The position numbers and the translations under genes are program-made. The notes under the pieces are model-generated. The model was not told the origin of the DNA, did no database searches, and worked only from the letters and a program-made list of their open reading frames with translations. This document shows, in pieces, positions 10,829 through 47,162 of a stretch of 49,877 nt of DNA. Source of the DNA: Boseongicola sp. SB0665_bin_10 (GTDB taxonomy: Bacteria; Pseudomonadota; Alphaproteobacteria; Rhodobacterales; Rhodobacteraceae). Within the stretch, counting starts at the first letter, position 1. Every line of letters starts with the position of its first letter. The DNA is taken from positions 1-49,877 of the forward strand of contig VXSG01000038.1 in assembly GCA_009838075.1 (NCBI GenBank). The letters are read 5' to 3'.

Positions 10829-11085
10829 GCAGGAAGTCTAGGTACAGATGTTCGGCTGAATCTTTGGTGCGGCCGCACTGGTTCGTGACTTGGCCAGGCC
10901 AACGCCCTTCGCATCCTCGGACCGCAATCTCGAGCGCAACGCAACGAGCGTTTTGAGCTTTCATCAGGCGCGGATAGGTTGGCAACACACCGCTACGGAT
11001 CTGCAAAAGGTGACACGGAGTGACTTCGCCGCACCCACCAGGTGAGCATGATTGGGGACGCTGGACCGGACTGGAGGGACGCACC

Positions 11086-11793
11086 ATGAAGAAACCAAGC
11101 CGATCCCAAGCATTGGCGTGTCTTGTTAGCATGTTTCCCTTTGCCGCTTTCGTCGTCCTGCTTTCCTTGCCTGCACCCGTCATGGCCCAGGGCCAGGCCG
11201 GAACTCCCGCAGGCGACATCGTCTGGCTGACGGAGCTGACTTCCGAGACCTGCAGCGACGACGCCCGCCGCACGGTGGCGACCAACGCAAGGGGATCCAT
11301 CGAATCCAGCGTCGCACGGGCCGAAACCTCGATCCGGCCACCGTCGCCGGTCGCCGGACTGGGCTGCATCGGACCGCTCCTGCAGTCACCGATCGACATC
11401 TTCTCCTCCGCGCTCGGCGGCCTCTCCGGCATTTTCCAGGTATCGCCCGCAGGCGGCTTCGGCTTCGGCCTCGACCTGAACACGGCGATCTGCAAGTTCG
11501 CCGAGGAGAAGATCGGCGAGCTGTCCGTCGGGCCCGTCGGCTCCCTGAAAGACATCCAGTCGAGAAGCCAGCGCGAGATCGCCGCCATCACGCAGTTTTC
11601 CGACGGTTTCAGTTTCAATGTCGGCCAGCAGCAGGTTCAGGTCCCTGCCGCGCCGCAGCCGGCAACCACCTCGACCGGAGGTGCATTCCAGCCCAGCCCC
11701 GGCCAAGGCGGAACGCCGTCGGCCACGCAGCAGCAGCTCAACACCATCATCCGGCAGATCCAGAGCCGCACGGGTTCGGGGCAGTCGCCATGA
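11086..11793 (+). CDS. Secreted T4BSS-associated hypothetical protein
   Basis: A 235 aa exported protein. Residues 1-35 are a long signal peptide ending VMAQ; the mature protein has Cys in SETCSDD, GLGCIG and AICKF, possibly forming disulfides, and a Gln/Thr/Pro-rich C-terminal tail. GGAGGG precedes the ATG at 11086. It overlaps the next gene by ATGA and starts the block that leads to DotL, so I infer that it is a periplasmic part of the transfer machine. It cannot be matched to a named Dot or Tra protein. Confidence 0.55.
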   Translation: MKKPSRSQALACLVSMFPFAAFVVLLSLPAPVMAQGQAGTPAGDIVWLTELTSETCSDDARRTVATNARGSIESSVARAETSIRPPSPVAGLGCIGPLLQSPIDIFSSALGGLSGIFQVSPAGGFGFGLDLNTAICKFAEEKIGELSVGPVGSLKDIQSRSQREIAAITQFSDGFSFNVGQQQVQVPAAPQPATTSTGGAFQPSPGQGGTPSATQQQLNTIIRQIQSRTGSGQSP

Positions 11794-12947
11794 CGGACGG
11801 TCTCATCAAATGGTCTGGCACCAGTCGCGTGCTGGGCCCGGCGCTCGCCGTCCTGCTGCTCGTAGCGTCCCCGGCGCAGGCCATTTTCGGGGGTGGACGT
11901 GGATGCCCGTGGAACGTGGCGACAAAGCCCCACGTCACGAAGGAGAACGAACGGGTGCGCGCCCAGGTTCGCGATTCGATCGAGCAGCAGACGATCGAAC
12001 TGAACGATCACCTGACCGTCACCATGCAGCGCCACGCACAGGAAAACAGCGCCCACCAGCGCATGCAGGCGGAGGCGAACCAGCGCATCGAGGACGCCGC
12101 GCAGGTCAACGCGACGCAACGGATGCGGGACGAGTTCCGCGCCAAGGCGGAAAGCGGCACCTTCGATCCGGCGCGGGATTCCTGCCGGCTGGTGGACATG
12201 TTCGGGCGTTCCGGAGGGAGCGGCCCAGCCGTCACCGGCAGCGACGTCGTGGGCAAGGCCGCCAAGGAACTCTCGGGCGACGATCCGGCTGTCGCCGAAG
12301 GTGGTGTGCCCCTGACCCGGTCCCGGGTCGACGCGTGGCAGGACTACCACGACTGGAACGGTCGGCAGGACGCCACGACCGACTGGGGCATCGTGACGGA
12401 ACAGCCGACGCTGGACATGGGTGACCCCGACACGGAGGCCGTCATCACGGAGATCATTCTCAACACGATCGACAACACGCCGCCGCCAAGGCTCTCGGAC
12501 AGTGATCTCCTTTCGCCGGAAGGCCTCGACGAGCAGGTCCGCCGCAACGAGATTCGCGCGCGGCAGCGTGCCGCCGAGGAGGTCATAGCCATGGTGCTCA
12601 ACATGCGGACGGGACTGCCCGGGGCCGACACGGAAACCTTCAGGGCGATGGCGACGGAGTCCGCATACAACTCGGGCAGCTCGAGCGCTCCCGTCTTTAC
12701 GCGCCCGATCGGAGACAGCCTGTCCGAACTCCAGCAGCTGGATATCCTCACAGTGTGGAACTACGCGCCCAAGGGCGAACGTCTCGAAACGCTGACCAAC
12801 TCCGGCGGCATGAACGTGCAGGCCTGGCTCTACGAAATTCACCGACTTCTGGCGGTCTCCAACCGTCTCGACTATCTCGCGCTGGAACTGGCAAGCCGGG
12901 ACGCGCTCGTCAACGCGGCCCTCTTGGCTACCCTCAATGACAACTGA
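11790..12947 (+). CDS. Secreted coiled-coil transfer protein, perhaps TraW-like
   Basis: A 385 aa exported protein with a signal peptide ending PAQA. Residues 48-120 are a long charged coiled coil; the middle contains a Cys in RDSCRLVDMF, and the C-terminal third is helical (AWLYEIHRLLAVSNRLDYLAL). Size, export and place next to DotL fit the IncI TraW/VirB5-like group, but the assignment is tentative. It overlaps the preceding gene by four bases and the following gene by eleven, so the three are almost certainly one transcript. Confidence 0.5.
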   Translation: MTDGLIKWSGTSRVLGPALAVLLLVASPAQAIFGGGRGCPWNVATKPHVTKENERVRAQVRDSIEQQTIELNDHLTVTMQRHAQENSAHQRMQAEANQRIEDAAQVNATQRMRDEFRAKAESGTFDPARDSCRLVDMFGRSGGSGPAVTGSDVVGKAAKELSGDDPAVAEGGVPLTRSRVDAWQDYHDWNGRQDATTDWGIVTEQPTLDMGDPDTEAVITEIILNTIDNTPPPRLSDSDLLSPEGLDEQVRRNEIRARQRAAEEVIAMVLNMRTGLPGADTETFRAMATESAYNSGSSSAPVFTRPIGDSLSELQQLDILTVWNYAPKGERLETLTNSGGMNVQAWLYEIHRLLAVSNRLDYLALELASRDALVNAALLATLNDN

Positions 12948-13215: not shown

Positions 13216-13310
13216 CTTCGTTCCGCACAGGCGGTCTCGAACTGCGGGGTGGACCGATCCGTGTGACGTCCGCATGATGCGACCTGTCGCATGACGTGAA
13301 GGATCTTCCG

Positions 13311-16300
13311 ATGGCGGATTTCAGCAGAACGAACCCATCGCTGCCGCAGGCGGGCGAGACGGTGGACAGCACGGCGATCCGCCGTCGTGTCGGCGGACCT
13401 GCCGCCGGGCTCGCGGACCTGCTGACGCATCCGGATACCGTCACCGTCCTGATGCTGTCATTCGCCGTCGCGACCTTTCTCATGCCAGCCCTCTGGACCT
13501 TCACCGGCGGGCTGTCCGCAGCCTACGTCTTCTGGGCCGCCGGACGACGCTACCGGCTTCCCTTCAAGGCGCCGATTACGTGGCGCGGCAAGGACTGGGG
13601 ATCGGAGGCGCCGGGACGGCCAGGCGTCTACAGGGACGCCGCCGCCATCCTGCATTTCGGCCAGGACGAGATCAGCCGTGAAGAGCTCTGGATCGACAAG
13701 GACGATGCCTGCCGGCATGGTTTCTTCATCGGAACCACGGGGTCGGGAAAGGCCCTGCCGCTCGACACGTTGATCCTGACGCCCGGGGGATGGGTGCCGA
13801 ACGGCGATCTCGCGCCCGGCGATAGCGTCTGTCATCCGGACGGCGGAACGGCGCAGGTGCATTCCGTCCACCCCCAAGGACGCGTTCCGGCGGTGCGTCT
13901 GCATTTCGAGGACGGGCGCATCGCCGACTGCTCCCGGGACCATCTCTGGCACGTCCGTCCGGGCCCGGGTGGCTTGGTGTCAGACGCCCCGACCGAGATT
14001 CCCCCGGAAGGGCGAATCATGGCGGCCGGGGACATCGGCATTCTCCTCGGCGTGTTTCCGCAGACGGACCTGCGCGTGCCTCTGGCCTGTCCCCGGACGG
14101 GACCGGACTTTGCCGACGATCCGGCGGAGGAAGGGCGGGAATGCGCGGCATCCGGGTTTTCGGCCGGAACATCCGATTCGCATCACATGCCGGCATTGCT
14201 GGGCAGCCCCGGCGATCGGCGCGCCTTCCTGGACGGCTATCTCGCGGCAACCAAGGCACGCGTGGAGACAGAGGACGGTGTCCAGCGGATTTCGCCCTTG
14301 GGCGAAGAGGAGGCCTGCCAGCTGAAGCATGTCGCCTGGTCGCTCGGCGGCATCGCGACCACGACACGTCGCACCGACGGCCGCTTTGCCCTCGACATGA
14401 CCTTCCAGGCGGATGACGCTTCGGAACCGGCGGGCGGTGCCGGGGAGGCAGGTGGCGAGGGCGGCGAAGCTGGCCTGGCGGGCCCCGGGCTGCGAGTCGT
14501 CTCTGTCGAAGCGCTCGACGAGGACCGCGAGATGTCCTGCATCCGGGTCGACCGCGCGGACGGGCTCTACGTGATGGAGAACTTCGTCACGACGCATAAC
14601 ACGGAGCTGCTGCTGGGCGTCGTCAGCCAGACGCTCACGTGGTCGTCCGGGTTCCTCTTCATCGACGGGAAGGGGACCACGGAATTCTATGCCCGCACCT
14701 GGACCCTCTGCAAGCGCTTCGGGCGGGAGGACGATCTTCGGGTGCTGAACTTCACCGATCCCGGCGACGATCCGGACGCGCCGGCGGGCGGCCCGTCCAC
14801 GCAGTCCAACACGCTCAACCCATTTGCCAAGGGATCTCCGGACCAGCTGATGAACATCATCGTCTCGCTCATGGGCGACGCCGGCGCCGGCAACGACATG
14901 TGGAAGTCCAGGGCCATGTCGCTCGTGACAGCCTTGATGATGGGGCTGTGCGAACTGAGGGACCGAGGGGAGATCCTGCTCAACGTGCAGACCATCCGCG
15001 ACTTCCTTTTCCTCGGCAAGGGACCCGACAAGGCGCTCGTGCCGAAGACCGTCAAGGGACCTGCAGACATCCCCGAGAAGGCATGGGAGGAGATGCGGTC
15101 GAGGGCCGGGCTGATCGAGCTTTACCTGCGCGCGCTGAACGGGGAGATGTCGGAGTCGACGCGACTGGCGCTGAAGGGCTTCTTCAACACGCTTCCCGGC
15201 TTCTCGGTGGAGAATGCGCTGGCCGGCGAACCCCAGGAGGCGAAATGCAAGGAACAGTACGGCTTCCTCAGCATGCAGCTGACCAAGCCCCTCGGCTCGC
15301 TGGCGGACGGCTACGGGCACATCTTCCGGACGCCCCTGGGCGAGATCGACATCGACGACGTGGTGCTCAACCGCCGCATCCTCGTCGTGCTGCTGCCGGC
15401 GCTGCAGAAGGCCCCGGAGGAGATGCAGAACTGCGGCAAGATCGTCGTGGCTCTTGTGAAGACCATGATGGGCAATTCATCGGGCTTCGAGTTGCAAGGA
15501 ACCCGCCAGGAGATCGTCGACGCCAAGCCCACGCGGTCGGCCTCGCCCTTCATCGTCGTCCTCGACGAGGCCGGCTACTACATGGTCAAAGGCATTGACG
15601 TGATGATGGCCCAGGCGCGCTCGCTCGGCTTCATGATCATCGTCGCTGGCCAGGACATGGCGGCGATGCAGTCGATCAGCCAGCAGATCGCCGAGACGGC
15701 GGCAGCCAACGCCAGCATCCTGGCCGTGGGCAAGACGGTTGACGGTGCCAGGACGGTCCAGTTCGTCCAGCAGATCGTCGGAAAGACGACGGTCTCGGTC
15801 TCGAGCGGATATTCGGCGAAGACCGGGCTGATGGGCAACACGAAGTGGATGGACCGGATGGACGTGTCCTTCCAGGAAGCCGAACGGATCAAGCTCCAGG
15901 AACTCCAGGCATTGACCGAAGGCCAGTTCTACTTCCTGTTCAACGGTCGACTCGTGCGGGCGGCGACCTTCTACATCGGCGACGAATTCGCGCGGAGCTT
16001 CTCGGTCAACAAGTTTCTCAAGGTCAGGGGGCCGTTGGACCGGGTGCCGGGTCTCGACCAATCGGTGGAAATCGATTTCCTGGACGGCTACGTCAAGGTC
16101 GCCGAACGCATCTGGGGCGATGGCGGGAACGCGCGGGACGACCGGAACGACCGGGAAGACGGGATTGACCGCGAATTCCCGGCCGCTCCGGATGACCGTC
16201 TTGCCAAGATCTCCGGGATCGCCCTTGCTGCCCTTGCCCGCGCGGGACGGGATTCCGGGTCCGCCATTCGCATGAACGCCTGGATTTCCGGCATCCTCGC

Positions 16301-16829
16301 CGTCTGCGGTCCGGGGCAGGATGGCGCGGAATGCGGGGATACGGCCTGGGACGAAGAGGAGGACGTCCGGCAGGCAATCATCCAGGACACGCTGGACGAC
16401 TTGCAGCGCGAAAGGCCAGGACGGGATCCGAACTACGTGCCGAAGAATCGACGGAAGCGGCAGATGACCATTGCCGACGCATTCCGCCAAGCGCGCAACG
16501 GGATGCACCCGCCGGACAGGCACGAAGGGATGGTCGAGATGCTGAAGGCCGAGAAGAGGAGCCTCGAACGGGCGGAGGCCTTGGGGCATATGGCGGACAA
16601 GGCCCGCCCTGCGGCGCCCGTGACGCTTCTTGACATGTTCGGCAGCATGGCGCGCCAGACGAAGGCGATCCATGACGTGCTGGTCGAGCAGGAGGCGGAA
16701 AACGACCTTGGCGCGCAGATCCTCGGCCGGGCCACCTGCCTTGATCCGTTCACCATTCCGGGCAAGGGGTCCGAGGGTCAGGAATGGGTGCGAAGCCAGT
16801 CCGAGAGCCTGGAGCGTGCCGTGTCCTGA
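13311..16829 (+). CDS. dotL: DotL/TrbC type IVB coupling ATPase carrying an intein
   Basis: The precursor is 1172 aa, the spliced protein 889 aa. The N-terminus has two hydrophobic segments (about residues 45-80), as in VirD4/DotL coupling proteins, then a P-loop GTTGSGK (141-147) that continues with T after the intein. The extein then shows FLFIDGKGT, LNPF, and the Walker B SPFIVVLDEAGYYM, followed by ARSLGFMIIVAGQDM. The C-terminal 200 aa are charged and variable, as in DotL, where adaptor proteins dock. It recruits DNA and protein substrates to the channel. The ATG at 13311 follows GAAGGA seven bases upstream. Confidence 0.85.
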   Translation: MADFSRTNPSLPQAGETVDSTAIRRRVGGPAAGLADLLTHPDTVTVLMLSFAVATFLMPALWTFTGGLSAAYVFWAAGRRYRLPFKAPITWRGKDWGSEAPGRPGVYRDAAAILHFGQDEISREELWIDKDDACRHGFFIGTTGSGKALPLDTLILTPGGWVPNGDLAPGDSVCHPDGGTAQVHSVHPQGRVPAVRLHFEDGRIADCSRDHLWHVRPGPGGLVSDAPTEIPPEGRIMAAGDIGILLGVFPQTDLRVPLACPRTGPDFADDPAEEGRECAASGFSAGTSDSHHMPALLGSPGDRRAFLDGYLAATKARVETEDGVQRISPLGEEEACQLKHVAWSLGGIATTTRRTDGRFALDMTFQADDASEPAGGAGEAGGEGGEAGLAGPGLRVVSVEALDEDREMSCIRVDRADGLYVMENFVTTHNTELLLGVVSQTLTWSSGFLFIDGKGTTEFYARTWTLCKRFGREDDLRVLNFTDPGDDPDAPAGGPSTQSNTLNPFAKGSPDQLMNIIVSLMGDAGAGNDMWKSRAMSLVTALMMGLCELRDRGEILLNVQTIRDFLFLGKGPDKALVPKTVKGPADIPEKAWEEMRSRAGLIELYLRALNGEMSESTRLALKGFFNTLPGFSVENALAGEPQEAKCKEQYGFLSMQLTKPLGSLADGYGHIFRTPLGEIDIDDVVLNRRILVVLLPALQKAPEEMQNCGKIVVALVKTMMGNSSGFELQGTRQEIVDAKPTRSASPFIVVLDEAGYYMVKGIDVMMAQARSLGFMIIVAGQDMAAMQSISQQIAETAAANASILAVGKTVDGARTVQFVQQIVGKTTVSVSSGYSAKTGLMGNTKWMDRMDVSFQEAERIKLQELQALTEGQFYFLFNGRLVRAATFYIGDEFARSFSVNKFLKVRGPLDRVPGLDQSVEIDFLDGYVKVAERIWGDGGNARDDRNDREDGIDREFPAAPDDRLAKISGIALAALARAGRDSGSAIRMNAWISGILAVCGPGQDGAECGDTAWDEEEDVRQAIIQDTLDDLQRERPGRDPNYVPKNRRKRQMTIADAFRQARNGMHPPDRHEGMVEMLKAEKRSLERAEALGHMADKARPAAPVTLLDMFGSMARQTKAIHDVLVEQEAENDLGAQILGRATCLDPFTIPGKGSEGQEWVRSQSESLERAVS
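13752..14600 (+). other. Class 3 intein in the DotL Walker A motif
   Basis: A 283-residue intein inserted between Lys and Thr of GTTGSGK/T. It starts with Ala (ALPLDTLILTPGGW), not Cys or Ser, and ends THN before Thr+1. Block B has DHLW (His64, Trp66), block F has SCIRV (Cys263) and block G has Thr281-His282-Asn283. Trp, Cys and Thr at these places are the WCT signature of class 3 inteins, in which the block F Cys makes the first attack because residue 1 cannot. The centre contains a weak LAGLIDADG-like segment (FLDGYLAATKA), probably a dead homing endonuclease. Confidence 0.88.
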
Positions 16830-16911
16830 CGATCGCGGTGTGGTGTGTCATCGAGGACGGAACTCGGCAGTTCCGATTGACGGGCGAGGCCGTCGAATGC
16901 AAGGTCGATGC

Positions 16912-17514
16912 ATGAACGAGGACGTGACAAGCATGATGCCCGCCGTCACGAGGCACCTGGAACGTCTCTCCGAGTCGATTGGAAAGCTGCCGTGTCGGGT
17001 CCATGCCTACGTGGCGGGCGGCGCGGCGGTGAACCATCATGTCGGAGGCCGGATTTCGAACGACGTGGACATCAAGTGGTCGCACAGGATCGCGATTCCG
17101 CCAGACCTGCAGGTGTTCACGATCGAGGGAGAAAGTCCGGAGACGCGCAACTTGATTGCCATGGACGGCGGCTTCACGGATGTCTTGGGCTCCTTTCCCC
17201 CCGGCTGGGAAGACAGGGCAGAGCACGTCGCCACGGCCGGAGACATCGTCATCCATGTCATCGACCCAGTCGACCTGGCGGCATCCAAGGTCGCGCGTTT
17301 CCAGGACCGCGACAGGGACGACATCCGTCGGCTCGCGCAGGCGGGCCTCGTCGATCCCGACTTGTTCGAGGCGAGGGTCCGGGAAGCCTTGGACTTCTAT
17401 GTCGGCGACACGACGTTCGTGCAATGGAATGCCCGGGACGCGGAGGAAATCGTTCGCGATGCCGCGCCCGGTCTATCGAACCGCGAGGACACTCTCGATG
17501 ATCCGTCGCCCTGA
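16912..17514 (+). CDS. Nucleotidyltransferase-like protein (DUF6036-type)
   Basis: A 200 aa protein whose N-terminal region reads VAGGAAVNHHVGGRISNDVDIKW, the GG and DxD pattern of minimal nucleotidyltransferases such as DUF6036 and AbiEii-like proteins. DPVDLAASKVARFQDRDRDDIRRL further on is typical of DUF6036, where a DxxDxxxL helix follows the fold. Relatives occur in abortive-infection and toxin-antitoxin settings. The ATG at 16912 is chosen for its position after AAGG; the frame runs further upstream through dotL without support. It follows dotL in the same direction. Confidence 0.6.
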   Translation: MNEDVTSMMPAVTRHLERLSESIGKLPCRVHAYVAGGAAVNHHVGGRISNDVDIKWSHRIAIPPDLQVFTIEGESPETRNLIAMDGGFTDVLGSFPPGWEDRAEHVATAGDIVIHVIDPVDLAASKVARFQDRDRDDIRRLAQAGLVDPDLFEARVREALDFYVGDTTFVQWNARDAEEIVRDAAPGLSNREDTLDDPSP

Positions 17515-20074: not shown

Positions 20075-20176
20075 GATGCCCTGAGGATGGCCGAATCCGC
20101 TCCCTTGTTGGAGAGCCTGCCGGCAAGTAGAATCGGCGCTGAGTGACATGGCTGCGAAATGGCGGGAGTGATCCGC

Positions 20177-20467
20177 ATGAAGGACGGGGCAGGTCGAGAC
20201 GCGGACGCGCTCCCGCAGGATCCGGGCGCCGCAGTTCGCGACCTGGTCCGTGCACCGCTGAAGTCGCGGATGCAGAGGCTGGATGCCCTGTCCCGGTCCG
20301 CGCATCTGGACCAGCTGTTCGCTGTGGCAGAGGCGAACCCGGATCCGCGTGTCACGGCCGTCGTCGCCACGACCGCCGGCAGTCTTGTCAGGCAACGGAT
20401 GCTCGCCGACATTCTCTCCGTAGAGCGACGCGACCGGATCAGGCAGATCGTGGAACGGTGCGCATGA
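20177..20467 (+). CDS. Small protein preceding dotA
   Basis: A 96 aa helical protein. Its Arg- and Ala-rich C-terminal half includes LFAVAEANPDPRVTAVVATTAGSL. GGGAG lies eight bases before the ATG at 20177. The TGA overlaps the dotA ATG, so expression is coupled. No family is recognised; the position suggests a role in the same machine. Confidence 0.45.
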   Translation: MKDGAGRDADALPQDPGAAVRDLVRAPLKSRMQRLDALSRSAHLDQLFAVAEANPDPRVTAVVATTAGSLVRQRMLADILSVERRDRIRQIVERCA

Positions 20468-22902
20468 TCTCTCGGCGCGGCCCCATCAACGTGGCCTTGG
20501 TGATCCTTGCCGCGTGCCTGGTGGCCCACCCGGCCCTGGCCCAGGCACCGACAGTCCCGCCGGGTCCGCAGTCCAACACCGGCTTCCTGTCCGGCGTCGA
20601 TGCCTTCAGCCTGTTCAACGACATCGGCGATGCCTATTCCTCGCTTCTGCTGAACCAGGTCTTCGGCAACCTGTTTCCTTCTCCGGACGGCGTGGACAGG
20701 GGCACGGTGCTGCCGGGCGTCGTCGGTTTCTTCAACCTCGTCATCCTGGTCGTTGGCGGCGGCATGTTCTTCTGGAACGTTACGGTCGGGACGCTGCAGT
20801 CCGCCCATGAGGGCCAGGTTCTGGGCGCGCGCTGGTCGTCTCTCTGGGCGCCGATCCGCCTGATCTTTGCCGTTGGGCTGCTCGTGCCGGTCAATGACGG
20901 CTACAACCTTGGCCAGTCCGGCGTGGCCTGGGTCGTGCAGGGTGGCACGCGCCTTGCGTCCATGGTCTGGGGCGAGGCGGCAAGAATCGTTCTCGTCGAC
21001 GACGTTCCGGTCGTCGAGCCCTCGGTATCCTTCCCGCACGAAGTGACACGCCAGCTCTGGGACCAGGCTGTCTGCGCCACGATCGAGGATGCCAAGCACC
21101 GTACGGCAAGCCACGGGACCAGGAGTGTCGCCTGGAGCCCGTACGAGCAATCGGGGGATCCCGTGATCGTCCAAGGCATCACCACAGGGATCGATCTCCA
21201 CGGGATGAAGGGTTGGACGACCCGCAGCCATGTCCGCGAAACGGGATCCACGAGGAAGCGCAAGATGGACATCTGCGGCACGCGCTCAACGCCGGAGACG
21301 CCCGAGTACCTCCTGAACATCCATAACCGGAACGTCCATGGAGCCGACGCCACTCCGCAGACGATGGCATTCGCGGAGAGGATCAACACGGAGTTTCATG
21401 CACATCACGGCTTCCTGCTGGAAACGCTTTTCAGGGAGTTGAAGGCCGTGACGGACGGCCTGCATGACCGGATCAGGGACGGCGACCTTGGCGATACGAC
21501 CGTCGCCCTTGCAAGAACCGGAATCGCGGACGCCCACAGCACCGCATCAACCTACTTCAAGACCGACATCGTCGATCATGTCCGCGCGGAAGCCACCCAA
21601 CCTGGTTCGGGAGTCTCCACCGCGCGCGAACTGCTCCTGACGCGGATCACCGGCGGCAACGCCTGCGGCACCGTGATCAACGGGCAGGTGACCGGCATGG
21701 ACGAGACCTGCCGGGGCGAAGGCTGGATGATGGCCGGAGCCTGGTATGTTCTGCTCGCGCGGCTGAACAACGAGGCGATCAGCCTGTCCGAGGCCGTGGG
21801 TTCCTCGACCCCGCCGGAAAACGACATCGATGTCTCGCGCAAGAACGAAGAGTGGCGGTCCAGGCTTCGTTCAACGTCCAGGAGCGACGAAGGCCAGCCG
21901 TCCCATAAACATCAGGCCGAGATCGAGACCGGCCGATACAACCTGGTGTATGACGAGGCGGTCCTGGGACTCGCGGCACAGGGATTCGAAGTGCCCAACG
22001 ATCTCCTGACCCGGATCAACCAGGAGTCGCGCGGCGCGGATGACAGTTTCTTCTCGAAGCTCGTCGAAGGGGTGATGGTCGAGTGGGCGGACACGGTGCT
22101 GCAGATCATGGATCCGGCCAACAGGCACGACCCGATGATCGGCATCATGTGGTGGGGCCAGACCCTGATGGGCGCGGCGGCCGCATTGATGGGCTTCACG
22201 CTTGCCGTGGGTACGCAGGTCTTCGGAACCGGTCCTGGTGCAGGTCCGGCGATCTTCATGTTGCCGATCTTCTCGCTTCTTGTCGCCGCCGGCGCCGGCA
22301 TGGCCTTCATCCTGCCGCTGCTGCCGTTCTTTTACTGGATCCTGGCCCTCATGGGGTATTTCCTGCTCATCTGCGAGGCGATCATTGCCGTCTCGCTCTG
22401 GGCACTGTCGCATCTGCGCATGGATGGCGAGGGGATCTCCGGGGAGGCAGGACGCCAGGGCTGGATCATCATCCTGGCCCTCTTCATGACACCGGTCCTG
22501 ATGGTCATCGGGTTCCTGCTCGGCATGATCCTGTTCCGCGTCATGGCGAACCTGATCGACATAGGCATGCTGCCCGTCGTGTCCGCGATCATCGGCGCCA
22601 ACCCGATCATATTCATCTTCGGCATGATCGCCTACTCGATCGTCATGGTGACCGCCTATGTCCTGCTCCTCGAGCGGTCCTTCTCGCTGATTTCCGAGTT
22701 TCCCTCCCGCGTGCTCAGGTGGATGGGCGGCTCCGCCGAGATCGCGGGAGGCGAGGGTCGCGTCCAGGCCGCCGCCGCCGCGGGCGTGGCCGGTCTCAAC
22801 ATGGCGGGCAACAGGATCGAGGGTGGCGTGAAGTCGTTGATTGAGCGTCGGGCCGGGAATCGCGGCCAGGGCGGATCGGTGAGCAGGAGTGACAGGACAT
22901 GA
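20464..22902 (+). CDS. dotA: DotA/TraY-like type IVB secretion membrane protein
   Basis: A 812 aa polytopic protein. Residues 1-29 form a signal-like helix ending ALAQA; one hydrophobic segment lies near residues 88-110, then a large periplasmic region (about 180-540) with scattered Cys, then at least four closely packed hydrophobic segments in the last third (GQTLMGAAAALMGFTLAV, FMLPIFSLLVAAGAGMAFILPLLPFFYWILALMGYFLLI, IIILALFMTPVLMVIGFLLGMILF, PIIFIFGMIAYSIVMVTAYVLL). This plan and the LPFFYW motif match DotA/TraY. It is part of the inner-membrane transfer complex. It overlaps both neighbours by four bases. Confidence 0.82.
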   Translation: MISRRGPINVALVILAACLVAHPALAQAPTVPPGPQSNTGFLSGVDAFSLFNDIGDAYSSLLLNQVFGNLFPSPDGVDRGTVLPGVVGFFNLVILVVGGGMFFWNVTVGTLQSAHEGQVLGARWSSLWAPIRLIFAVGLLVPVNDGYNLGQSGVAWVVQGGTRLASMVWGEAARIVLVDDVPVVEPSVSFPHEVTRQLWDQAVCATIEDAKHRTASHGTRSVAWSPYEQSGDPVIVQGITTGIDLHGMKGWTTRSHVRETGSTRKRKMDICGTRSTPETPEYLLNIHNRNVHGADATPQTMAFAERINTEFHAHHGFLLETLFRELKAVTDGLHDRIRDGDLGDTTVALARTGIADAHSTASTYFKTDIVDHVRAEATQPGSGVSTARELLLTRITGGNACGTVINGQVTGMDETCRGEGWMMAGAWYVLLARLNNEAISLSEAVGSSTPPENDIDVSRKNEEWRSRLRSTSRSDEGQPSHKHQAEIETGRYNLVYDEAVLGLAAQGFEVPNDLLTRINQESRGADDSFFSKLVEGVMVEWADTVLQIMDPANRHDPMIGIMWWGQTLMGAAAALMGFTLAVGTQVFGTGPGAGPAIFMLPIFSLLVAAGAGMAFILPLLPFFYWILALMGYFLLICEAIIAVSLWALSHLRMDGEGISGEAGRQGWIIILALFMTPVLMVIGFLLGMILFRVMANLIDIGMLPVVSAIIGANPIIFIFGMIAYSIVMVTAYVLLLERSFSLISEFPSRVLRWMGGSAEIAGGEGRVQAAAAAGVAGLNMAGNRIEGGVKSLIERRAGNRGQGGSVSRSDRT

Positions 22903-23393
22903 CACAGTCTTCCGATGCGTCGCCGACAGGCTGGTCGGAGCATGCCCGCTGGATGACGGAAGTCGCCACCCTTTCCGACGTGTCCTTCGCGCTCGACGGG
23001 CCGGTCGTGCCGGCCATCCAGGCCATGACCGACAGCGCGCTCGTGGGAGATCTCGTTGACATGGGCCGCATGAGCCTGTCGCTCTCGGTCCAGGGCGTCC
23101 TCGGCCCGGAAGACATGGACGGCTTGCCGGGACATCCGCCGGACCCTGTCCTTGACGCTCTCCTGTTCGATTACGCCATCGAGGTCGCGCCTCGGAGGGA
23201 GGGGACACCTGATGTCGTTGACATGCACGAGCTTTGCCTGCGCGTGCAGGACATGCGCGCTGCGTTCGGCATGGCGCCCTCCGCACCGGCGCTCGCCTGT
23301 GCCGTCACGGTGGAGGCCTCCAGACGCCTGTCGGCGACCGACCCTGTCGAACGGGCCGACTCCACCCGACTCGATGAACCGGAGCGGACTTGA
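22899..23393 (+). CDS. Hypothetical protein between DotA and DotM
   Basis: A 164 aa acidic, soluble protein without membrane segments. It begins in an ATGA overlap with dotA and ends in a TGATG junction with the DotM gene. In IncI plasmids the traY-excA-trbA order puts an exclusion gene here; by position this could be an exclusion or adaptor protein, but sequence does not confirm it. Confidence 0.45.
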   Translation: MTQSSDASPTGWSEHARWMTEVATLSDVSFALDGPVVPAIQAMTDSALVGDLVDMGRMSLSLSVQGVLGPEDMDGLPGHPPDPVLDALLFDYAIEVAPRREGTPDVVDMHELCLRVQDMRAAFGMAPSAPALACAVTVEASRRLSATDPVERADSTRLDEPERT

Positions 23394-26300
23394 TGGCGGG
23401 GCCGTCCTCGTCCGGCCATGACGAGCAGACGATGACCCTCCTGGTCATCGCCGCGGCGCTGGCGGTCGCGCTCTTCGCGATTTCACGCATGCAGGAGGAG
23501 ATCAACGCGATCTCCGGCGCGTTGTCATGGCTCTGTCTCTGGCCCTTCGCCATGGCCGTGGACCACGTCCCGTCGCTGCGGTCGCTCCCGGTGCTGGGCG
23601 GGTTCTTCCAAGACGTCGAACTGGCAACGCAATTCCTGGCAGCAGGCAACTTCGCCTACATGTCACCGGCACAGCGTCTCGCCGTCCTGTCGGTGTCCGG
23701 ACGCGCCATCTTGCCCGTCCTGCTGCCCTTCATGGCCTGGGCCGCGTTTGCCCTGCGGAAGCTCCGCGTCGACCAGGCGCATCGCAGGTCCTACACGCTG
23801 GACACTATGATTCACGCACAGTCCGAGCACTGGAGCACGTCCCGTCTCGTGCGCCACGTCAACCCGCTGGAACAGCCCGAGACCGGGGCTGCCGCGCTCG
23901 CGCGCGCCGTCAGCGAGCCGGGGGCGGGACGATCCGTCGGGAGACTGGTGGTCGATCCCGGGCGGCAGGCGCCCGCATTGCCATGGCAGCGCGCGATGCG
24001 CCCCGAGGAATGGCTCGTGGCCGGCGGGCTGGCCATTGACCAGAACGTGATCGAAAGGGCTAAGGCTGTCGACTGGAGGATGCCGGACCAAGACATGGAA
24101 TCCCGCCATCTTTGGAAGGACCTGGACTTGGACAGTCTCATGGAGGTGCTGGCCGGGCAACTGCGCCGTGCCTGGACCGGGCACGAAACCCTGCGGCCGT
24201 GCCTCAAGGCACTGCTTGCGGTTCTGGCGCATTTCCACGCCTACGAGCTGGAGGAGGGGCGCACGATCCTCGACGACTTGGGCCGGCTGGTGGACGCGAT
24301 CCAGGCGCGGCCCGGGCTCGACGAGGCGATCCTGGCCGAACCGGGTTTCATGGGCCGGATCGAAGCGGTGCTGGCCAACGTGCAGGGGCAGGGGCTGATG
24401 GAGGTCGCGTCTCGCCACGCCTGGCTGGAGTCGGCGTTTCCTGCCATGCTGGCCGCCGCCCGGTACAGGCGCGGCGTTCTGCCGCCTGCGACCTTCCTCT
24501 GGCTCAAGACGGAAGACCGGGCGCTCTGGTACGTCCTGGACAGCGTGGGATCCGAGGCGGTCATGGTGGAAGCGGCCGGCGCCATGTCACACTACAGGGC
24601 CGAGATGCAGATCGGTGCGCCGATACGCCGTCCCGCCGTCTACCAGGCCGCGCGGGCACTCCTTGAGGACTACCTCGACATTACGCCGGAGCGCGTCCGA
24701 AGAAGTGCCGAGAAGGCGGATCGCGCCTTGGCACCGGGCGAGAGGATCGACGCCGTTGCGACGGGATCAGGCGCGAGGATGCATCTGTCCGGGCGTGGCC
24801 TTTCCTCCCTCCTGATCGTGATCCTCGTAGCGGGCCTGCTGGCCCAGATGGCGTTCGCCTGGAACCTGTCAGTGCGCGAGGAACGCGTGCATGGCGCTGC
24901 GACGACGCTCGCAGACGTCATTCGTGCCGAGGCCTACGGATTGCATCACTGGCTCCACCGTGAACGGGTGGACGGGCTGAACGAGCACCTGCCTCTGCAG
25001 GCCGACACGACGCGCTTCCTGGACGCGGACGAGAACGCGCGGCTCGCTGCGGATCCCGCGGTCACGCCCTGGCGCCGCGCCGCGGCCGACTCGACTCGCG
25101 TCATCATGCCCCGGGGCTGGACGTTGGTTCGCATGATCGCGAGGACCCGCGGCGACAACGCGGTGGAGGACGCGGTGCTCGTGCTGCGCGCGCCCGTCGG
25201 CGCGCCAGCCGCCCGGCTGGCGCCGGTGTTCCTGCATCTTGACAGCCTCATCGCGCGCGAAGGCGGGCAGGCGGAGACGCTGGCGACGACAGCCTTCGCC
25301 GTGACGGGTGACGCCGTTCCCGACTTCGATCCGGACCGTGACCGGGCATTCCTTGCCAGCAAGTTCGCGCGGATCGACAGCACGATCGTGCTCAGGGACA
25401 GGCACGCGGGGCAGCCCCGTCCCTCCATGGCCACGGATCTCGACGTGCCGGACATCTTCAACATCAACTCCATGACAGCCAAGGCGGCCGCCAACGACAC
25501 CCTGTTCGCCGCGGATTGCGACGGTTCCTCGGACCCGATCGAGGCGCCCGACAGCATCCTGTCGTGCCAGATGGCCCTGCGCATGGCCATGGATGACGGG
25601 CGCGGCATTCTGGACTGCCTGGATGCAGGTGGCACCCTGGTAGACGAGACGGCCTGCCATGGCTGGCTCGATTCCGACGTCATCGACCCGATTCTCGCCA
25701 CGTTCGAGCGCAAGTCCGGGCACATCCTGAATGCGCTGAACGCCAACGATGTCTGCACGTCCGGCAACGCAAGCCATGACGCGTGGCGCTGCCAGAACCT
25801 GGAAGCGCTCTACGGCAGGAACTGGTGGGACGGGTTCACCTCTCCGGACTGCGGCACGAGCACCCATGCCAGCGATGCTTGCAGGGCGGCAAAGCTGACC
25901 CATCTCCGCGAGATGCTGCGAACGCGGCTCGTGGATGCGGCGCCATCGCTGGCGCCGGGGCTCTGCGCCAGGGACATCCGGTCTGCCGCCTGCCTGGAGT
26001 GGGTGATTCATGCCGCGAACGTTCCGACGGGCGGCGGGACGCCGGAGACCTTCGCGGAAAGCTGCAGGACCGCGGGAACGACTTCGGCCGCTTGCGCTCG
26101 CCTCGTCGGCGTCCTTGCCGGCGCGCTCCCTGATCCGGACATGCTGTGCGCGGCCCCGATGGACGGGGTCTGTCGTGCGTGGATCAGCCAGCGCGCCACG
26201 ATGGCATCCTGGAGCCCAGAGGAGCTGTGCCGCCCGCTCTACGACCATGACGGCAGCGGGTCGCTCTGCGATGCCGCACTCGGCTCGGCCACGGACCCGA

Positions 26301-27304
26301 AGCGCCACGCATTCCGTCTCGGCCCTCACGATCTTTGCCGGTTCGAGCCGGGTCCAACTGGCGACCTGCCCCGGCGGGCCTGCCTGCAGGCACGCGTCAT
26401 GGACATGACGGCGACCGATGCCGAGAAGGAAGCCTGTCACGCCGTGCGGGCTGGAACGGCAACGAGTGCCCAGTCCAGGACCTGCCACGACGCACGGATG
26501 CAGCGGCTGAACGCCTACTGGTCAGGGAGTCCGACCTCCGCTGCGCCGCACATCAGGTACGACCTGCCAGCCCTGTCCTCCCTGAACGTACGCTACAACG
26601 CCCAGACAGGCAGGGACTACCCGGACAAGTCGCTTTACCCTGTGGGTACGACCGCTGGCGACCGGACGTCCTGGGAAGCCGTGCGCATGAAGATGGGAAC
26701 GTTTCCCGGCTGGCCTTCGGCAACCGCGCGTTCGGAGACCGTCGCAGTTGCGGGCGGCGTGCGCCTCGCAGACGGGCTGGCGCAGACACGGCTGGCGTCC
26801 GGGAGCGATCCCGCCGCCGGCGGCGCCCGCGTGGGCGGCGTCTTGGAGATAGAAGATGGCGGCACCCTCATGACGCTCAACCTGGTCAGCGACGGCGACA
26901 TGTGGCTCGGCCCGGCCCGGGATGCATCGGGCCTGCCCGTCTGGCAGGGCGATCCGGGCTACGTGGTTCCGCCGGGGATCCCGGACCCGGACGCGGGACC
27001 CCTCCTGAACTTCGACGAGATGACCATCGTCGGGACGGAGCTCGTCGTCGACGTGAGCGGCAATTTCCTGACTGACGGCACCCTGGCCCTCCTGCATTCG
27101 CCGCGCACGGCGTTCACGACGGCGCCGGAGGACATGTCGACATCGCCGTTCGCTGGTACGGCCGTGTTCACGGGCACGACGTCAGGTACAGCCGACGCCC
27201 TCGTGGCCGATCACGAGCTCGACGTGGGAACGCTGAACGTCTCCGGCTGCTTCCGCTCCGTCATTCCGTTCTTTTTGGGGCCTGGTTGCGGCAGCGCGCC
27301 GTAA
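23393..27304 (+). CDS. DotM/TrbA protein fused to a large exported Cys-rich, pilin-like domain
   Basis: A 1303 aa protein, against about 380 aa for ordinary DotM/IcmP. Residues 1-440 are DotM: N-terminal membrane segments, then FLWLKTEDRALWYVLDSVG and EAAGAMSHYRAEMQI, the family core. DotM with DotL forms the coupling complex. A hydrophobic helix near residues 468-490 (LLIVILVAGLLAQMAFAW) leads to about 810 further residues containing 22 cysteines in regularly spaced pairs, then a beta-rich end with GGVRLADG and GCFRSVIPFFLGPGCG. The layout after the helix (LADVIRAEAYG, GWTLVRMIARTRGD) recalls type IVb pilin PilV. The pilin reading is inference; the fusion is seen. Confidence 0.7.
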   Translation: MAGPSSSGHDEQTMTLLVIAAALAVALFAISRMQEEINAISGALSWLCLWPFAMAVDHVPSLRSLPVLGGFFQDVELATQFLAAGNFAYMSPAQRLAVLSVSGRAILPVLLPFMAWAAFALRKLRVDQAHRRSYTLDTMIHAQSEHWSTSRLVRHVNPLEQPETGAAALARAVSEPGAGRSVGRLVVDPGRQAPALPWQRAMRPEEWLVAGGLAIDQNVIERAKAVDWRMPDQDMESRHLWKDLDLDSLMEVLAGQLRRAWTGHETLRPCLKALLAVLAHFHAYELEEGRTILDDLGRLVDAIQARPGLDEAILAEPGFMGRIEAVLANVQGQGLMEVASRHAWLESAFPAMLAAARYRRGVLPPATFLWLKTEDRALWYVLDSVGSEAVMVEAAGAMSHYRAEMQIGAPIRRPAVYQAARALLEDYLDITPERVRRSAEKADRALAPGERIDAVATGSGARMHLSGRGLSSLLIVILVAGLLAQMAFAWNLSVREERVHGAATTLADVIRAEAYGLHHWLHRERVDGLNEHLPLQADTTRFLDADENARLAADPAVTPWRRAAADSTRVIMPRGWTLVRMIARTRGDNAVEDAVLVLRAPVGAPAARLAPVFLHLDSLIAREGGQAETLATTAFAVTGDAVPDFDPDRDRAFLASKFARIDSTIVLRDRHAGQPRPSMATDLDVPDIFNINSMTAKAAANDTLFAADCDGSSDPIEAPDSILSCQMALRMAMDDGRGILDCLDAGGTLVDETACHGWLDSDVIDPILATFERKSGHILNALNANDVCTSGNASHDAWRCQNLEALYGRNWWDGFTSPDCGTSTHASDACRAAKLTHLREMLRTRLVDAAPSLAPGLCARDIRSAACLEWVIHAANVPTGGGTPETFAESCRTAGTTSAACARLVGVLAGALPDPDMLCAAPMDGVCRAWISQRATMASWSPEELCRPLYDHDGSGSLCDAALGSATDPKRHAFRLGPHDLCRFEPGPTGDLPRRACLQARVMDMTATDAEKEACHAVRAGTATSAQSRTCHDARMQRLNAYWSGSPTSAAPHIRYDLPALSSLNVRYNAQTGRDYPDKSLYPVGTTAGDRTSWEAVRMKMGTFPGWPSATARSETVAVAGGVRLADGLAQTRLASGSDPAAGGARVGGVLEIEDGGTLMTLNLVSDGDMWLGPARDASGLPVWQGDPGYVVPPGIPDPDAGPLLNFDEMTIVGTELVVDVSGNFLTDGTLALLHSPRTAFTTAPEDMSTSPFAGTAVFTGTTSGTADALVADHELDVGTLNVSGCFRSVIPFFLGPGCGSAP

Positions 27305-27825: not shown

Positions 27826-29130
27826 ATGGCTGAAACGCTGGAAGTCCACGTTCAGGTCGGGAAGGTGACTCATCGCGTAGGGACGCTTTATTGTCATGTT
27901 CGAGGCGGATCGGAATCGTCCACTTTCGTCTATGGCCCCGGCTGGCTGAAGAACCCGAAGGCGTTTGCGATTCAGCCTGACATGCCGCTCGCACGGGACG
28001 GCTATCATGTCTCGGCAGAGAACGGGTCGTTGCCAGGCGCGGTGCGCGACGGCTCGCCTGACAGGTGGGGACGCAAGCTGATCATCCGCGCGATGCAGAG
28101 GCGTAAGGAGCAAGAGCCGTTGTCGGAGGCAGGGTTTCTCGTCTCCCTCGATGACTCCAGCCGGATTGGTGCACTTCGCTATCGCTTCGAAGCTGGTGAT
28201 GAATTCCTGCGCAAGTCGGCCGCGCGTTCGGTTCCTCCGATCATGAACATCGCCCGTCTGCTCAACGCGTCCGATGCCGTGCAGGAAGACACCGCTACCG
28301 CCGAGGACCTTCGTTTCCTGCTCGGATACGGATCACCGCTTGGTGGCGCGCGCCCAAAGAGTGCCGTGCTCGATTCCGATGGAGCTATCGCGATCGCCAA
28401 GTTTCCTGCGACGGACGACATTCGCAACGTCGCGGCCGGCGAAGTCCTTGCGGCCGAGCTGGCGGTTCGCGCCGGCATCACGGCATCACGGACGCGCCTT
28501 CTCCGCATAGAGGATCGTCCCGTCAGCCTTGTTCGACGTTTCGACCGAGATGCTGAATGCTCCCGAACGCACTTCATCTCCGCAATGACGATGACAGGCG
28601 CTCGCGAAGGCGATGATGGTACATACACGGACATCGCGCTCGCCGTCCGCCAGTTCTGCGCGGAACCGACAAGGGACGCCCATGAACTGTTCCGCCGTGC
28701 CGCGTTCAACGTTCTGGCGACGAACCTGGATGACCACCTCCGGAACCACGCATTCCTTTTCGATCATGTCTCGGGCAAGTGGCGTCTCTCGCCCGCCTAT
28801 GACATGAATCCCGTGCCGGTAACGGAGAGGCCGCGGCATCTGACCACATGGATTTCCGAGGCCGGAGACGAGGCCGCGCTCGACAACCTCCTGGAAGTCT
28901 GCCGGGATTTCTGCCTCGAACCTGACATGGCTCGTGAAATCGTGTGCGATGTCGCCGACGCGATCCGACAGTGGCGAGAAGTCGGGCGCGGCCTTGGCCT
29001 CTCCGAGTCTGACATCGCGCCTTACGAGACCGCTTTCGAACACAGGGAACTGGAAGCCGCCCTCGCCATGTCCCGACCCGTCACGAACCACGGGCAGAGA
29101 TTTCCTGAAAGCGAACTGCCAGCGCCATGA
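27826..29130 (+). CDS. hipA: HipA-family serine/threonine kinase toxin
   Basis: A 434 aa kinase toxin. The glycine-rich loop SPLGGARPK (170-178), the catalytic NLDDHLRNH (300-308) and the metal-binding YDMNP (325-329) are all present, and the N-terminal HipA subdomain (VGTLYCHVRGGSESSTFVYGP split over its strands) precedes them. HipA kinases phosphorylate aminoacyl-tRNA synthetases and stall translation; the target here is unknown. It is tightly linked to hipB upstream and overlaps the next gene by ATGA. In a mobile element this pair would serve as a stability module. Confidence 0.85.
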   Translation: MAETLEVHVQVGKVTHRVGTLYCHVRGGSESSTFVYGPGWLKNPKAFAIQPDMPLARDGYHVSAENGSLPGAVRDGSPDRWGRKLIIRAMQRRKEQEPLSEAGFLVSLDDSSRIGALRYRFEAGDEFLRKSAARSVPPIMNIARLLNASDAVQEDTATAEDLRFLLGYGSPLGGARPKSAVLDSDGAIAIAKFPATDDIRNVAAGEVLAAELAVRAGITASRTRLLRIEDRPVSLVRRFDRDAECSRTHFISAMTMTGAREGDDGTYTDIALAVRQFCAEPTRDAHELFRRAAFNVLATNLDDHLRNHAFLFDHVSGKWRLSPAYDMNPVPVTERPRHLTTWISEAGDEAALDNLLEVCRDFCLEPDMAREIVCDVADAIRQWREVGRGLGLSESDIAPYETAFEHRELEAALAMSRPVTNHGQRFPESELPAP

Positions 29131-43375: not shown

Positions 43376-43450
43376 TGGAGCGGGCGGGTGGGAATCGAAC
43401 CCCCGTCTTGAGCCCGGAAAGCTCACGCTCTTCCATTGAGCTACGCCCGC
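43376..43450 (-). tRNA. tRNA-Gly(UCC), one base longer than usual
   Basis: The minus strand folds as a tRNA with acceptor GCGGGCG pairing CGCCCGC, D-arm GCTC/GAGC, anticodon stem TGAGC/GCTCA with loop TTTCCGG (anticodon TCC, glycine), T-loop TTCGATT and an encoded CCA (43376-43378). Total length is 75 where tRNA-Gly with CCA is usually 74: the T-stem 3' side reads CCCACC, so one A is probably bulged. It may be functional or slightly decayed. Such tRNAs are classical integration sites of elements. Confidence 0.8.
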
Positions 43451-45458: not shown

Positions 45459-45780
45459 TCGACCTTCGCTTCTTCATCAAATCTCATGTGAACCCGATGT
45501 AGGATCCTTGTGCCACGTGATCAATGTACAGACGTGGCCCGACAGACCGGTCCCAGCCACGACGCGGAGCGTCCACTTTTGGGATCCGGTTGACCCCGTG
45601 ACATGCGATGCCGATGCCATGACAGCCTTCATCCACAGTTCATGCAGAAGAGCCTGTGTTGTGTCCGAACGACACACCTTCGTAGGCATTATGCTATGAC
45701 ATCGCTGAACGGACCCAAAGAGACGGGACATGCAGAATTTCGCAATGGACAGCCGTTTGTTGCTGCAATAAACATCACTC
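45459..45780. other. Intergenic region, no gene seen, one dyad
   Basis: This divergent 322-base region between a membrane protein gene and the restriction-modification operon has no convincing frame; a 116-codon minus frame across it looks like chance. It holds an inverted repeat TGTGTC-cgaac-GACACA (45660-45676), about 105 bases before the regulator ATG, and a TATGCT -10-like box at 45690-45695. The dyad may be the operator for the ribbon-helix-helix protein. Confidence 0.45.
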
Positions 45781-46008
45781 ATGGCAAGGCCCAGAGGCAG
45801 GATCAAGACCGCGCGCGTGACGGTCAACCTGGACGACCGGGCGTATTCCGCGCTTCAGACCATTGCGGATCACGAGGATGCGCCGGTCGCGCAAATAGCG
45901 CGTCGCGCCATCATGGATTTCCTTGTTCGCGAAGGATCGAGGGTGCAGCAGCCGGTGCTTCCGCTGAGAGGATCTTTCGCGAGACAGTCCGCGGAGGAGC
46001 GTCGATGA
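45781..46008 (+). CDS. Ribbon-helix-helix regulator of the restriction-modification operon
   Basis: A 75 aa protein. ARVTVNLDDRAYSALQTIADHEDAPVAQIARRAIMDFLVRE follows the ribbon-helix-helix plan (here shown by its parts: strand ARVTVNL, then two helices). Such small proteins repress their own operon. It overlaps the first methyltransferase by ATGA. It may time methylase and endonuclease synthesis, as controller proteins do in other systems. Confidence 0.65.
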   Translation: MARPRGRIKTARVTVNLDDRAYSALQTIADHEDAPVAQIARRAIMDFLVREGSRVQQPVLPLRGSFARQSAEERR

Positions 46009-47162
46009 CTGTGGTTCCGAATTCCGCGCCGGTCAATCTTCCTGACATTGGCTCCCTTGCCGAGATAGATTGGGATTTTCCGGAGCGGATGAGCCACAGC
46101 GGCATTGAAGGGATTCATCCGTATCCCGCGAAATTCGTGACGGAGCTCCCGCGGACCCTTCTGAAGCTGCTGCCACTGCCTCGCAACACCGCGGTTCTTG
46201 ATCCATTCTGCGGCAGCGGAACCACGCTTGTCGAAAGCCAGCGGTTGGGCGTGCCGTCCGTCGGCGTCGACCTGAACCCGATCGCCTGCCTGATGACGCG
46301 GGTGAAGACCTCGCCGCTGCCCCCGGAATTCGGGAAGTGGGCAAGGAGGGTCGCGTCCGCGGCCAGGCGTGTCGGCGAACCCGAGGTGCCTGACATTCCG
46401 CGGCTGGATCACTGGTTCAACGGTCAGGTCCAGTCTGCGCTCGCGGCCCTGTCGACGGAGATCTCCGCGACGCCTTCGGTCCAGCAAGACGCACTGAGAC
46501 TGGCTCTCTCGAGCATCATCGTTCGCGTCTCCAACCAGGAAAGCGACACGCGCTACGCCGCCGTGGACAAGGGGTCTACGTCCGAAGACGTGTACCGGGG
46601 GTTCCTTCGCGCGGCCCATGGCCTGGAGGACGCGTTGCACGACCGCGACTATCCTTTCGCGCCAGCGACCGTTATCGAAGGAGACGTCTTGGAGACCCGG
46701 CATTCCGACATCGGGAAGAGGATCGGGATGGTCATCACCTCCCCACCGTATCCGAATGCCTACGAGTACTGGCTCTATCACAAGTACCGAATGTACTGGC
46801 TTGGATATGATCCCTTGAGAGTAAGGAGCAGGGAGATCGGGGCACGAGCCCACTTCTTCAAGAGAAACCACCATACCGCGGACGACTTCGCAAGGCAGAT
46901 GCAGCAAACCTTGCAACTGATCGGGCAGGTGATGGTCAGGGAGGGTTTCGCCTGCTTCGTGATCGGCCGCTCCCGCATTCACGGCCAGGACGTGGACAAC
47001 GCACGGGTGCTGGAGGACGTTGCGACCGCGGCCGGATTTGAACGCGTGTTCAGTGCCGAACGTGTGCTGGCCGCCACGCGGAAGTCGTTCAACCTTTCTC
47101 ATGCGAACATTAGGACGGAAACGGTGTTGGTCCTGAGGAGACGGTCGGCGCGATGCGACTGA
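46005..47162 (+). CDS. DNA (cytosine-N4)-type methyltransferase 1
   Basis: A 385 aa enzyme. Motif I, the AdoMet site, is DPFCGSGTT (66-74); the catalytic motif IV is SPPYP (246-250). SPPY is typical of N4-cytosine methylases, and the gap of about 170 aa after motif I holds the target recognition region. It protects the host DNA against the linked endonuclease. It overlaps the regulator and the second methylase by 4 and 10 bases. Two methylases fit an asymmetric target with one per strand. Confidence 0.82.
   Translation: MTVVPNSAPVNLPDIGSLAEIDWDFPERMSHSGIEGIHPYPAKFVTELPRTLLKLLPLPRNTAVLDPFCGSGTTLVESQRLGVPSVGVDLNPIACLMTRVKTSPLPPEFGKWARRVASAARRVGEPEVPDIPRLDHWFNGQVQSALAALSTEISATPSVQQDALRLALSSIIVRVSNQESDTRYAAVDKGSTSEDVYRGFLRAAHGLEDALHDRDYPFAPATVIEGDVLETRHSDIGKRIGMVITSPPYPNAYEYWLYHKYRMYWLGYDPLRVRSREIGARAHFFKRNHHTADDFARQMQQTLQLIGQVMVREGFACFVIGRSRIHGQDVDNARVLEDVATAAGFERVFSAERVLAATRKSFNLSHANIRTETVLVLRRRSARCD

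Follow-up and report, generated by a model that had tools for sequence, protein, structure and literature searches.

A predicted class 3 intein that splits the Walker A motif of a DotL-type coupling ATPase from Rhodobacterales

The window, a stretch of 49,877 nucleotides of contig VXSG01000038.1 from Boseongicola sp. SB0665_bin_10, very probably (about 90%) encodes a class 3 intein that has been kept by descent inside the Walker A loop of a coupling ATPase of the DotL type, within a type IVB conjugation locus, and whose splicing would yield the active ATPase. Sequence comparison confirmed the open reading frame at 13296-16829 as a predicted DotL/IcmO/TrbC-type coupling ATPase with the intein between GTTGSGK and T. 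The frame stays open and stop-free across the 283-codon insert, whose junctions read ...FFIGTTGSGK on the N side and TELLLG... on the C side. The original prediction of a class 3 intein at 13752-14600 that splits the P-loop at GTTGSGK/T is thus borne out by the junctions; its coordinates are exact and the signature residues lie where it had placed them. The Lys|Thr bond of the P-loop is a classic intein insertion site. The parts of the gene are:

13296-16829, plus strand: coupling-protein precursor open reading frame, 1177 aa, GTG start
13311-13751, plus strand: N-extein, with the Walker A residues GTTGSGK at its C-terminal end; matched by tblastn in all 11 related loci (L052-L062)
13731-13751, plus strand: GTTGSGK, the Walker A motif up to the insertion
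13752-14600, plus strand: predicted class 3 intein, 283 aa, Ala1 to Asn283
13941-13949, plus strand: block B, with His64 (B:10), Leu65 and Trp66 (B:12)
14538-14540, plus strand: Cys263, block F:4, predicted first nucleophile
14592-14600, plus strand: Thr281-His282-Asn283, block G:5-7
14601-14603, plus strand: Thr+1, C-extein nucleophile and, by inference, the Walker A threonine after splicing
14601-16829, plus strand: C-extein, DotL/IcmO-like ATPase

The ATG at 13311, with AAGGA 7 bases upstream, is by eye probably a likelier start than the GTG at 13296.

The intein carries the full set of class 3 residues. Its first position is Ala, and therefore not Cys, Ser or Thr, and its C-terminal residues are Thr-Thr-His-Asn. 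With blocks named B:10, B:12, F:4 and G:5-7 as in the accessible text of PMC5222942, the Trp-Cys-Thr (WCT) signature is formed by W66 at B:12, C263 at F:4 and T281 at G:5, accompanied by H64 at B:10, H282 at G:6 and N283 at G:7; the +1 residue is Thr, class 3 inteins having Ser or Thr here (Cys in the IcmO intein of Burkholderia vietnamiensis). Thr281 was read from the printed sequence, while Ala1, His64, Trp66, Cys263, His282 and Asn283 are at the positions given in the original prediction. According to PMC7664689, the WCT residues belong to a catalytic triad that includes His. From this signature and from relatives that have been tested, we infer splicing by the class 3 route: in the unspliced precursor the ATP-binding loop would be discontinuous; Cys263 would attack the Lys-Ala1 bond, the N-extein would be transferred to Thr+1, Asn283 would cyclise, and ligation of the exteins would restore GTTGSGKT and give an active ATPase. 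DotL would accordingly be expected to bind ATP only after splicing.

Both sequence and predicted fold support a resemblance between the window intein and solved class 3 inteins. Among 177,635 distinct PDB sequences, its best phmmer match was the class 3 DnaB intein of Mycobacterium smegmatis (MsmDnaBi1, 6bs8, E 7e-8), and other matches included the engineered gp41-1 intein (6riz, 3.3e-6) and the DnaB inteins of M. chimaera (6rix, E 5.3e-6; 6riy, 1.3e-5). An AlphaFold model built on 23 aligned inteins (mean pLDDT 86.7) has the HINT splicing fold; Foldseek ranked PI-SceI first (E 1.3e-8), with the class 3 structures 6riy, 6rix and 6bs8 among ranks 6 to 20 (E 2e-7 to 6e-6, TM by target 0.76-0.79). 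MsmDnaBi1 (6bs8) and MchDnaB1 (6rix) are thus class 3 inteins like that of the window, matched by sequence and by fold, and MsmDnaBi1 is also a P-loop insertion with a Walker A hydroxyl residue at +1, according to PMC6195587. The mycobacterial inteins differ in being mini-inteins hosted by a replicative helicase, with Ser at +1 in M. smegmatis. The sole Pfam match, to Hint_2, did not reach the cut-off (E 0.054 over the complete intein, 0.0086 over its first 83 residues), and NCBIfam had no match to the intein, so that automatic annotation may overlook it.

The host protein is supported, by sequence comparison, as a predicted coupling ATPase of the DotL/IcmO/TrbC type, in line with what had been claimed for it. 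Residues 1-480 of the C-extein match Legionella pneumophila DotL/IcmO (6sz9, E 1.9e-97), a relationship that extends across the ATPase core; Pfam PF12696 (TraG-D_C) matches the whole frame above its cut-off, and NCBIfam NF041447 (TrbC) matches it with E 5e-101 and 339 bits, under a cut-off of 800. Neighbouring genes for DotA/TraY and a DotM domain place the coupling gene in a type IVB locus:

11020-12947, plus strand: two genes tending to travel with the window's DotL (tblastn, 9 of 11 loci L052-L062)
20143-22902, plus strand: DotA/TraY (TIGR04346, E 4.9e-84, above cut-off)
23390-27304, plus strand: protein with a DotM/IcmP domain and a long C-terminal part (PF23127, E 6.2e-37, above cut-off; NF033890, E 5.1e-30, below cut-off)

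By tblastn, the gene pair at 11020-12947 lies upstream in eight loci and downstream on the other strand in L057, and was not found in L056 or in the short L061. The DotM domain covers residues 252-424 of a 1304-residue protein, the long C-terminal part of which had no further Pfam, NCBIfam or PADLOC match. Elsewhere in the window, a DUF6036/AbiEii-like nucleotidyltransferase (16858-17514) lies immediately downstream of the coupling gene, a HipA-like protein is encoded at 27826-29130, two DNA methyltransferases and a BfiI-like metal-independent restriction enzyme occupy 45603-49701, and a tRNA-Gly (TCC) on the minus strand (43376-43450) is possibly an integration site.

The insert could in principle be a product of misassembly or of a frame error. 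It lies in a single open frame, and the same kind of junctions recurs in 11 other, independent assemblies, all closely related Rhodobacterales loci (L052-L062) with the identical insertion site occupied; less closely related DotL and TraD proteins carry an insert there as well. This recurrence leads us to reject an artefact, which the original prediction had named as a refutation and which we regard as having a negligible chance. The search of coupling ATPases for the same insertion site, proposed there, recovered P-loop inteins in L052-L062, in other DotL proteins and in TraD.

To describe these relatives, we searched plasmids, genomes and viral sequences. With the window intein as tblastn query, 27 of 72,556 plasmid records matched at E<=0.01, none of them from Burkholderia. 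Nine of the 27 look DotL-type (M. extorquens AM1, two Pseudomonas and six Xanthomonas); both Pseudomonas records are annotated as DotL, and five of the Xanthomonas records as 'TraM recognition domain' with one unannotated, at equal scores. A DotL with a P-loop insert was confirmed in all three records inspected of these nine, one per kind. Six further plasmid records share one common match, one of them annotated traD; two were inspected. The C-extein alone matches 3913 plasmid records (tblastn), taken as a set and not singly, and P-loop inteins thus seem rare among plasmid coupling proteins, as judged by this tblastn test only. The AM1 intein as query matched 37 plasmid records.

When 84,980 species genomes were scanned once with five aligned precursors as the query, which selects for the intein, 26 loci were returned. 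By C-extein comparison, 19 of these are DotL-type, including two distant ones (L063 and L065, 27-29% identity), and four are TraD-type, with a weak assignment for L066 (22% identity). L075 and L076 are presumably DnaB, by the look of the sequence, and L077, in which GTTGSGK is followed by ALALDT, carries no assignment; these three were left out of later counts. The remaining 23 loci, together with the window, L001, L002, L003 and L010, make up 28 parsed precursors. All 28 carry HLW at 64-66, Cys at -21 and THN, a count that for HLW and THN is partly by construction because these motifs were used to find and parse the sequences, which the Cys at -21 was not. The +1 residue is Thr in 26 and Ser in two, and the first residue of the intein is Ala in 21 and Pro in seven. 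In an alignment of 23 of these inteins, ten window columns are invariant, seven of them being H64, L65, W66, C263, T281, H282 and N283.

The DotL inteins of M. extorquens AM1, P. syringae, Xanthomonas and Pseudomonas and the TraD intein of pKAZ5 share the GK|T site and the signature residues with the window intein. They vary in architecture: the AM1 and pKAZ5 inteins retain both LAGLIDADG motifs, unlike the window intein, whereas the seven parsed Pseudomonas and Xanthomonas inteins are 145-150 aa long and begin with Pro, as against 283 aa and Ala in the window. Salipiger L068, from Rhodobacterales but outside the window's clade, has a 142-aa mini-intein. On the M. extorquens AM1 megaplasmid (L001, 5001-6095), DotL contains a class 3 intein of full length, both LAGLIDADG motifs included, at a place where the PLSDB table has no gene. 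The TraD-like gene of an IncC-type E. coli plasmid (L004, NZ_AP028311.1, 3446-5649) ends within its intein and adjoins an annotated IS3-family transposase gene. The TraD inteins of a Shewanella profunda contig (L064) and of plasmid pKAZ5 (L010) are identical in the splicing-domain columns of the tree, which, with C-exteins 99.8% identical, suggests recent spread.

Phage ATPases are likewise rich in similar inteins: of 50,697 phage records, 151 show a match to the window intein at E<=1e-3 and 690 to the AM1 intein minus its last 15 residues. Against viral contigs, the window intein alone gave 31 pattern matches with none confirmed, and the five-precursor alignment gave 41 loci (L011-L051). Class 3 residues were also seen in P-loop inteins of a T2SS/T4P/T4SS-family ATPase of Miltoncostaea oceani (L009, 3001-4014) and of an AAA ATPase of Gloeocapsa sp. 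PCC 7428 (L005, 4001-5074).

The window intein appears to have lost the means of homing. In the alignment with full-length relatives, its middle corresponds to their second LAGLIDADG half; the first half is absent, and in place of their GLMDTDG it has about GYLAATKA. A pattern search for the two LAGLIDADG motifs with catalytic acidic residues that mark a homing intein found no DOD motif in it. The remnant is:

14208-14402, plus strand: remnant of one LAGLIDADG half, catalytic Asp lost (alignment, clade motif check, predicted helix-strand-strand-helix-strand-strand)

In the model, this region comprises a helix at 153-167, strands at 170-174 and 177-183, a helix at 185-197 and strands at 201-206 and 212-217, and helix-strand-strand-helix-strand-strand is the order of one LAGLIDADG half. 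Folded alone, the middle gave the same order of elements at lower confidence (pLDDT 69.6) and no PDB match at E<=0.001; seven of the 50 listed matches were LAGLIDADG intein nucleases (E 0.087-0.36), so weak that the alignment and the full-length model are the chief grounds for the assignment. The half-domain is kept throughout the clade of the window and L052-L062, with R..(F/W) and WS(L/V)GG.A in 12 of 12 inteins (272-312 aa) and DTDG missing from all of them. A loose pattern matched L058 and L060 elsewhere in the middle, matches that we regard as fortuitous, since in the alignment they lie away from the motif helix. Both intact LAGLIDADG (DOD) motifs were found in four of the 28 parsed precursors (L001, L010, L064 and L065), whose inteins may possibly have a working nuclease. 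For the window intein we reject mobility by a working nuclease, given the missing DTDG and first half; with a single half left and the catalytic aspartate gone, it is no longer expected to home unaided. The P. horikoshii VMA intein likewise keeps a nuclease domain without catalytic aspartates, in another host protein, whereas the window intein has one half-domain only; PMC8966425, which describes it, also sets out a homing cycle with decay of the nuclease once the intein is fixed, along with the notion of a mutualism between nuclease and splicing domains.

Phylogenies were built from the C-exteins of 26 DotL proteins (23 with intein, three without) and from 28 intein splicing domains, the latter over 102 columns and with many weak branches. 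The 12-member clade of the window and L052-L062 was recovered in both (support 100/100 for exteins, 100/99 for inteins), as were the subclade of the window and L052-L055 (91/98 and 100/99) and the pairs L056-L057 and L059-L062; the remainder differs or is weak. Branches are long for L063, L065 and L008 in the extein tree and for L063 and L072 in the intein tree. Thus, the inteins of the 12-member clade appear, from these sequences, to be co-inherited with the host gene. Outside this clade, intein presence varies in the extein tree: the intein-free L006 and L007 cluster with the intein-bearing L001 and L068 (94/97), and so presence has changed inside that group. No intein-free member of the window's clade was found in viral contigs, a weak search in which no C-extein relative was confirmed at all, and none of the 3913 plasmid records matching the C-extein reached at least 60% identity.

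Selection was gauged from dN/dS by simple count for ten pairs, and ranges are reported for the window against L052-L055. Values were 0.13-0.22 for the C-extein (480 codons), 0.16-0.27 for the first 72 residues of the intein, 0.21-0.54 for its last 30 and 0.37-0.72 for its middle, all rough ratios since dS was near 1 or saturated in several pairs. By these estimates the splicing parts of the intein look constrained and the middle much looser. This bears on whether the intein is dead or splices poorly in a decaying conjugation module. The degenerate nuclease would fit such decay, as would the poor splicing, in a model precursor, of the B. vietnamiensis IcmO intein, the single DotL-type relative that has been assayed (PMC5222942); yet all splicing residues are retained, the C-extein and splicing blocks look constrained, and the DotA and DotM genes nearby are open, and we consider decay quite improbable. 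On the reading that we favour, the intein most probably persists because the host ATPase depends on splicing and precise loss seldom happens; support of the splicing fold by the remaining half-domain is perhaps a further reason.

The original prediction further held that no class 3 intein had been described in a type IVB coupling protein. This was mistaken: class 3 splicing was shown in 2016 for the plasmid-borne IcmO intein of B. vietnamiensis G4 (Tori and Perler, PMC5222942). As given in the accessible part of that paper, the intein needs Cys F:4, Trp B:12 and His B:10, less than half of the model precursor was converted, and the function of IcmO was not established; we take the protein to be a DotL from its name and from the flank ARSLGF, a conserved DotL stretch. 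The window intein is like it in class, WCT signature and IcmO/DotL host. The published description sets the B. vietnamiensis element apart as a 142-aa mini-intein at ARSLGF|CITFA with Cys+1, unlike the 283-aa window intein with its P-loop Lys|Thr site, Thr+1 and half nuclease domain. The equivalent of its site in the window is empty:

15615-15632, plus strand: ARSLGF, equivalent of the B. vietnamiensis IcmO intein site, empty in the window

Among the matches listed in open-licence literature (titles and abstract openings), we found no other inteins in coupling proteins or conjugation beyond PMC5222942, which is no proof of absence; the inteins of PMC4465626 are, in the text available, those of ribonucleotide reductases and not of coupling proteins. 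The window intein is therefore a further example of a class already known in coupling proteins, and what is new here is that in DotL the insertion falls in the P-loop, that this site is occupied repeatedly in proteobacteria, and that a clade of 12 members shows apparent co-inheritance.

It had also been proposed that splicing gates conjugation. This holds in the weak sense that the P-loop is interrupted until splicing; a regulatory gate is possible, and that part of the claim is speculative. Such a switch would have stress, for example oxidation of Cys263, slow splicing and hold conjugation until conditions permit. There is precedent in the P-loop class 3 DnaB intein of M. smegmatis, which oxidants inhibit reversibly through a disulfide of the catalytic Cys (available part of PMC6195587), but its partner Cys48 aligns with Ala47 of the window intein, and a transfer of the Cys48 redox switch to the window intein is not supported. 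Cys60, present in all 12 clade inteins, lies near block B in sequence. Retention across the clade without a working nuclease would suit a switch, but is also expected where precise loss is rare. Overall, we consider a regulated switch unlikely, if less so than decay. Comparably doubtful is the broader scenario of a Rhodobacterales lineage in which a nuclease-less class 3 intein was fixed in a conjugation motor gene, with the half-nuclease as splicing scaffold or sensor and splicing as a controlled step licensing DNA transfer.

An intein kept by descent in the coupling ATPase, the reading that we favour, bears on conjugation motors more widely. The Walker A loop of these motors, of both DotL and TraD types, is repeatedly occupied by the class of intein with which phage helicases and terminases are filled as well. 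The window's clade is a lineage in which an intein without a working nuclease seems to have been long retained, and whether such inteins are parasites only or controls of conjugation is a question now open to a simple splicing test.
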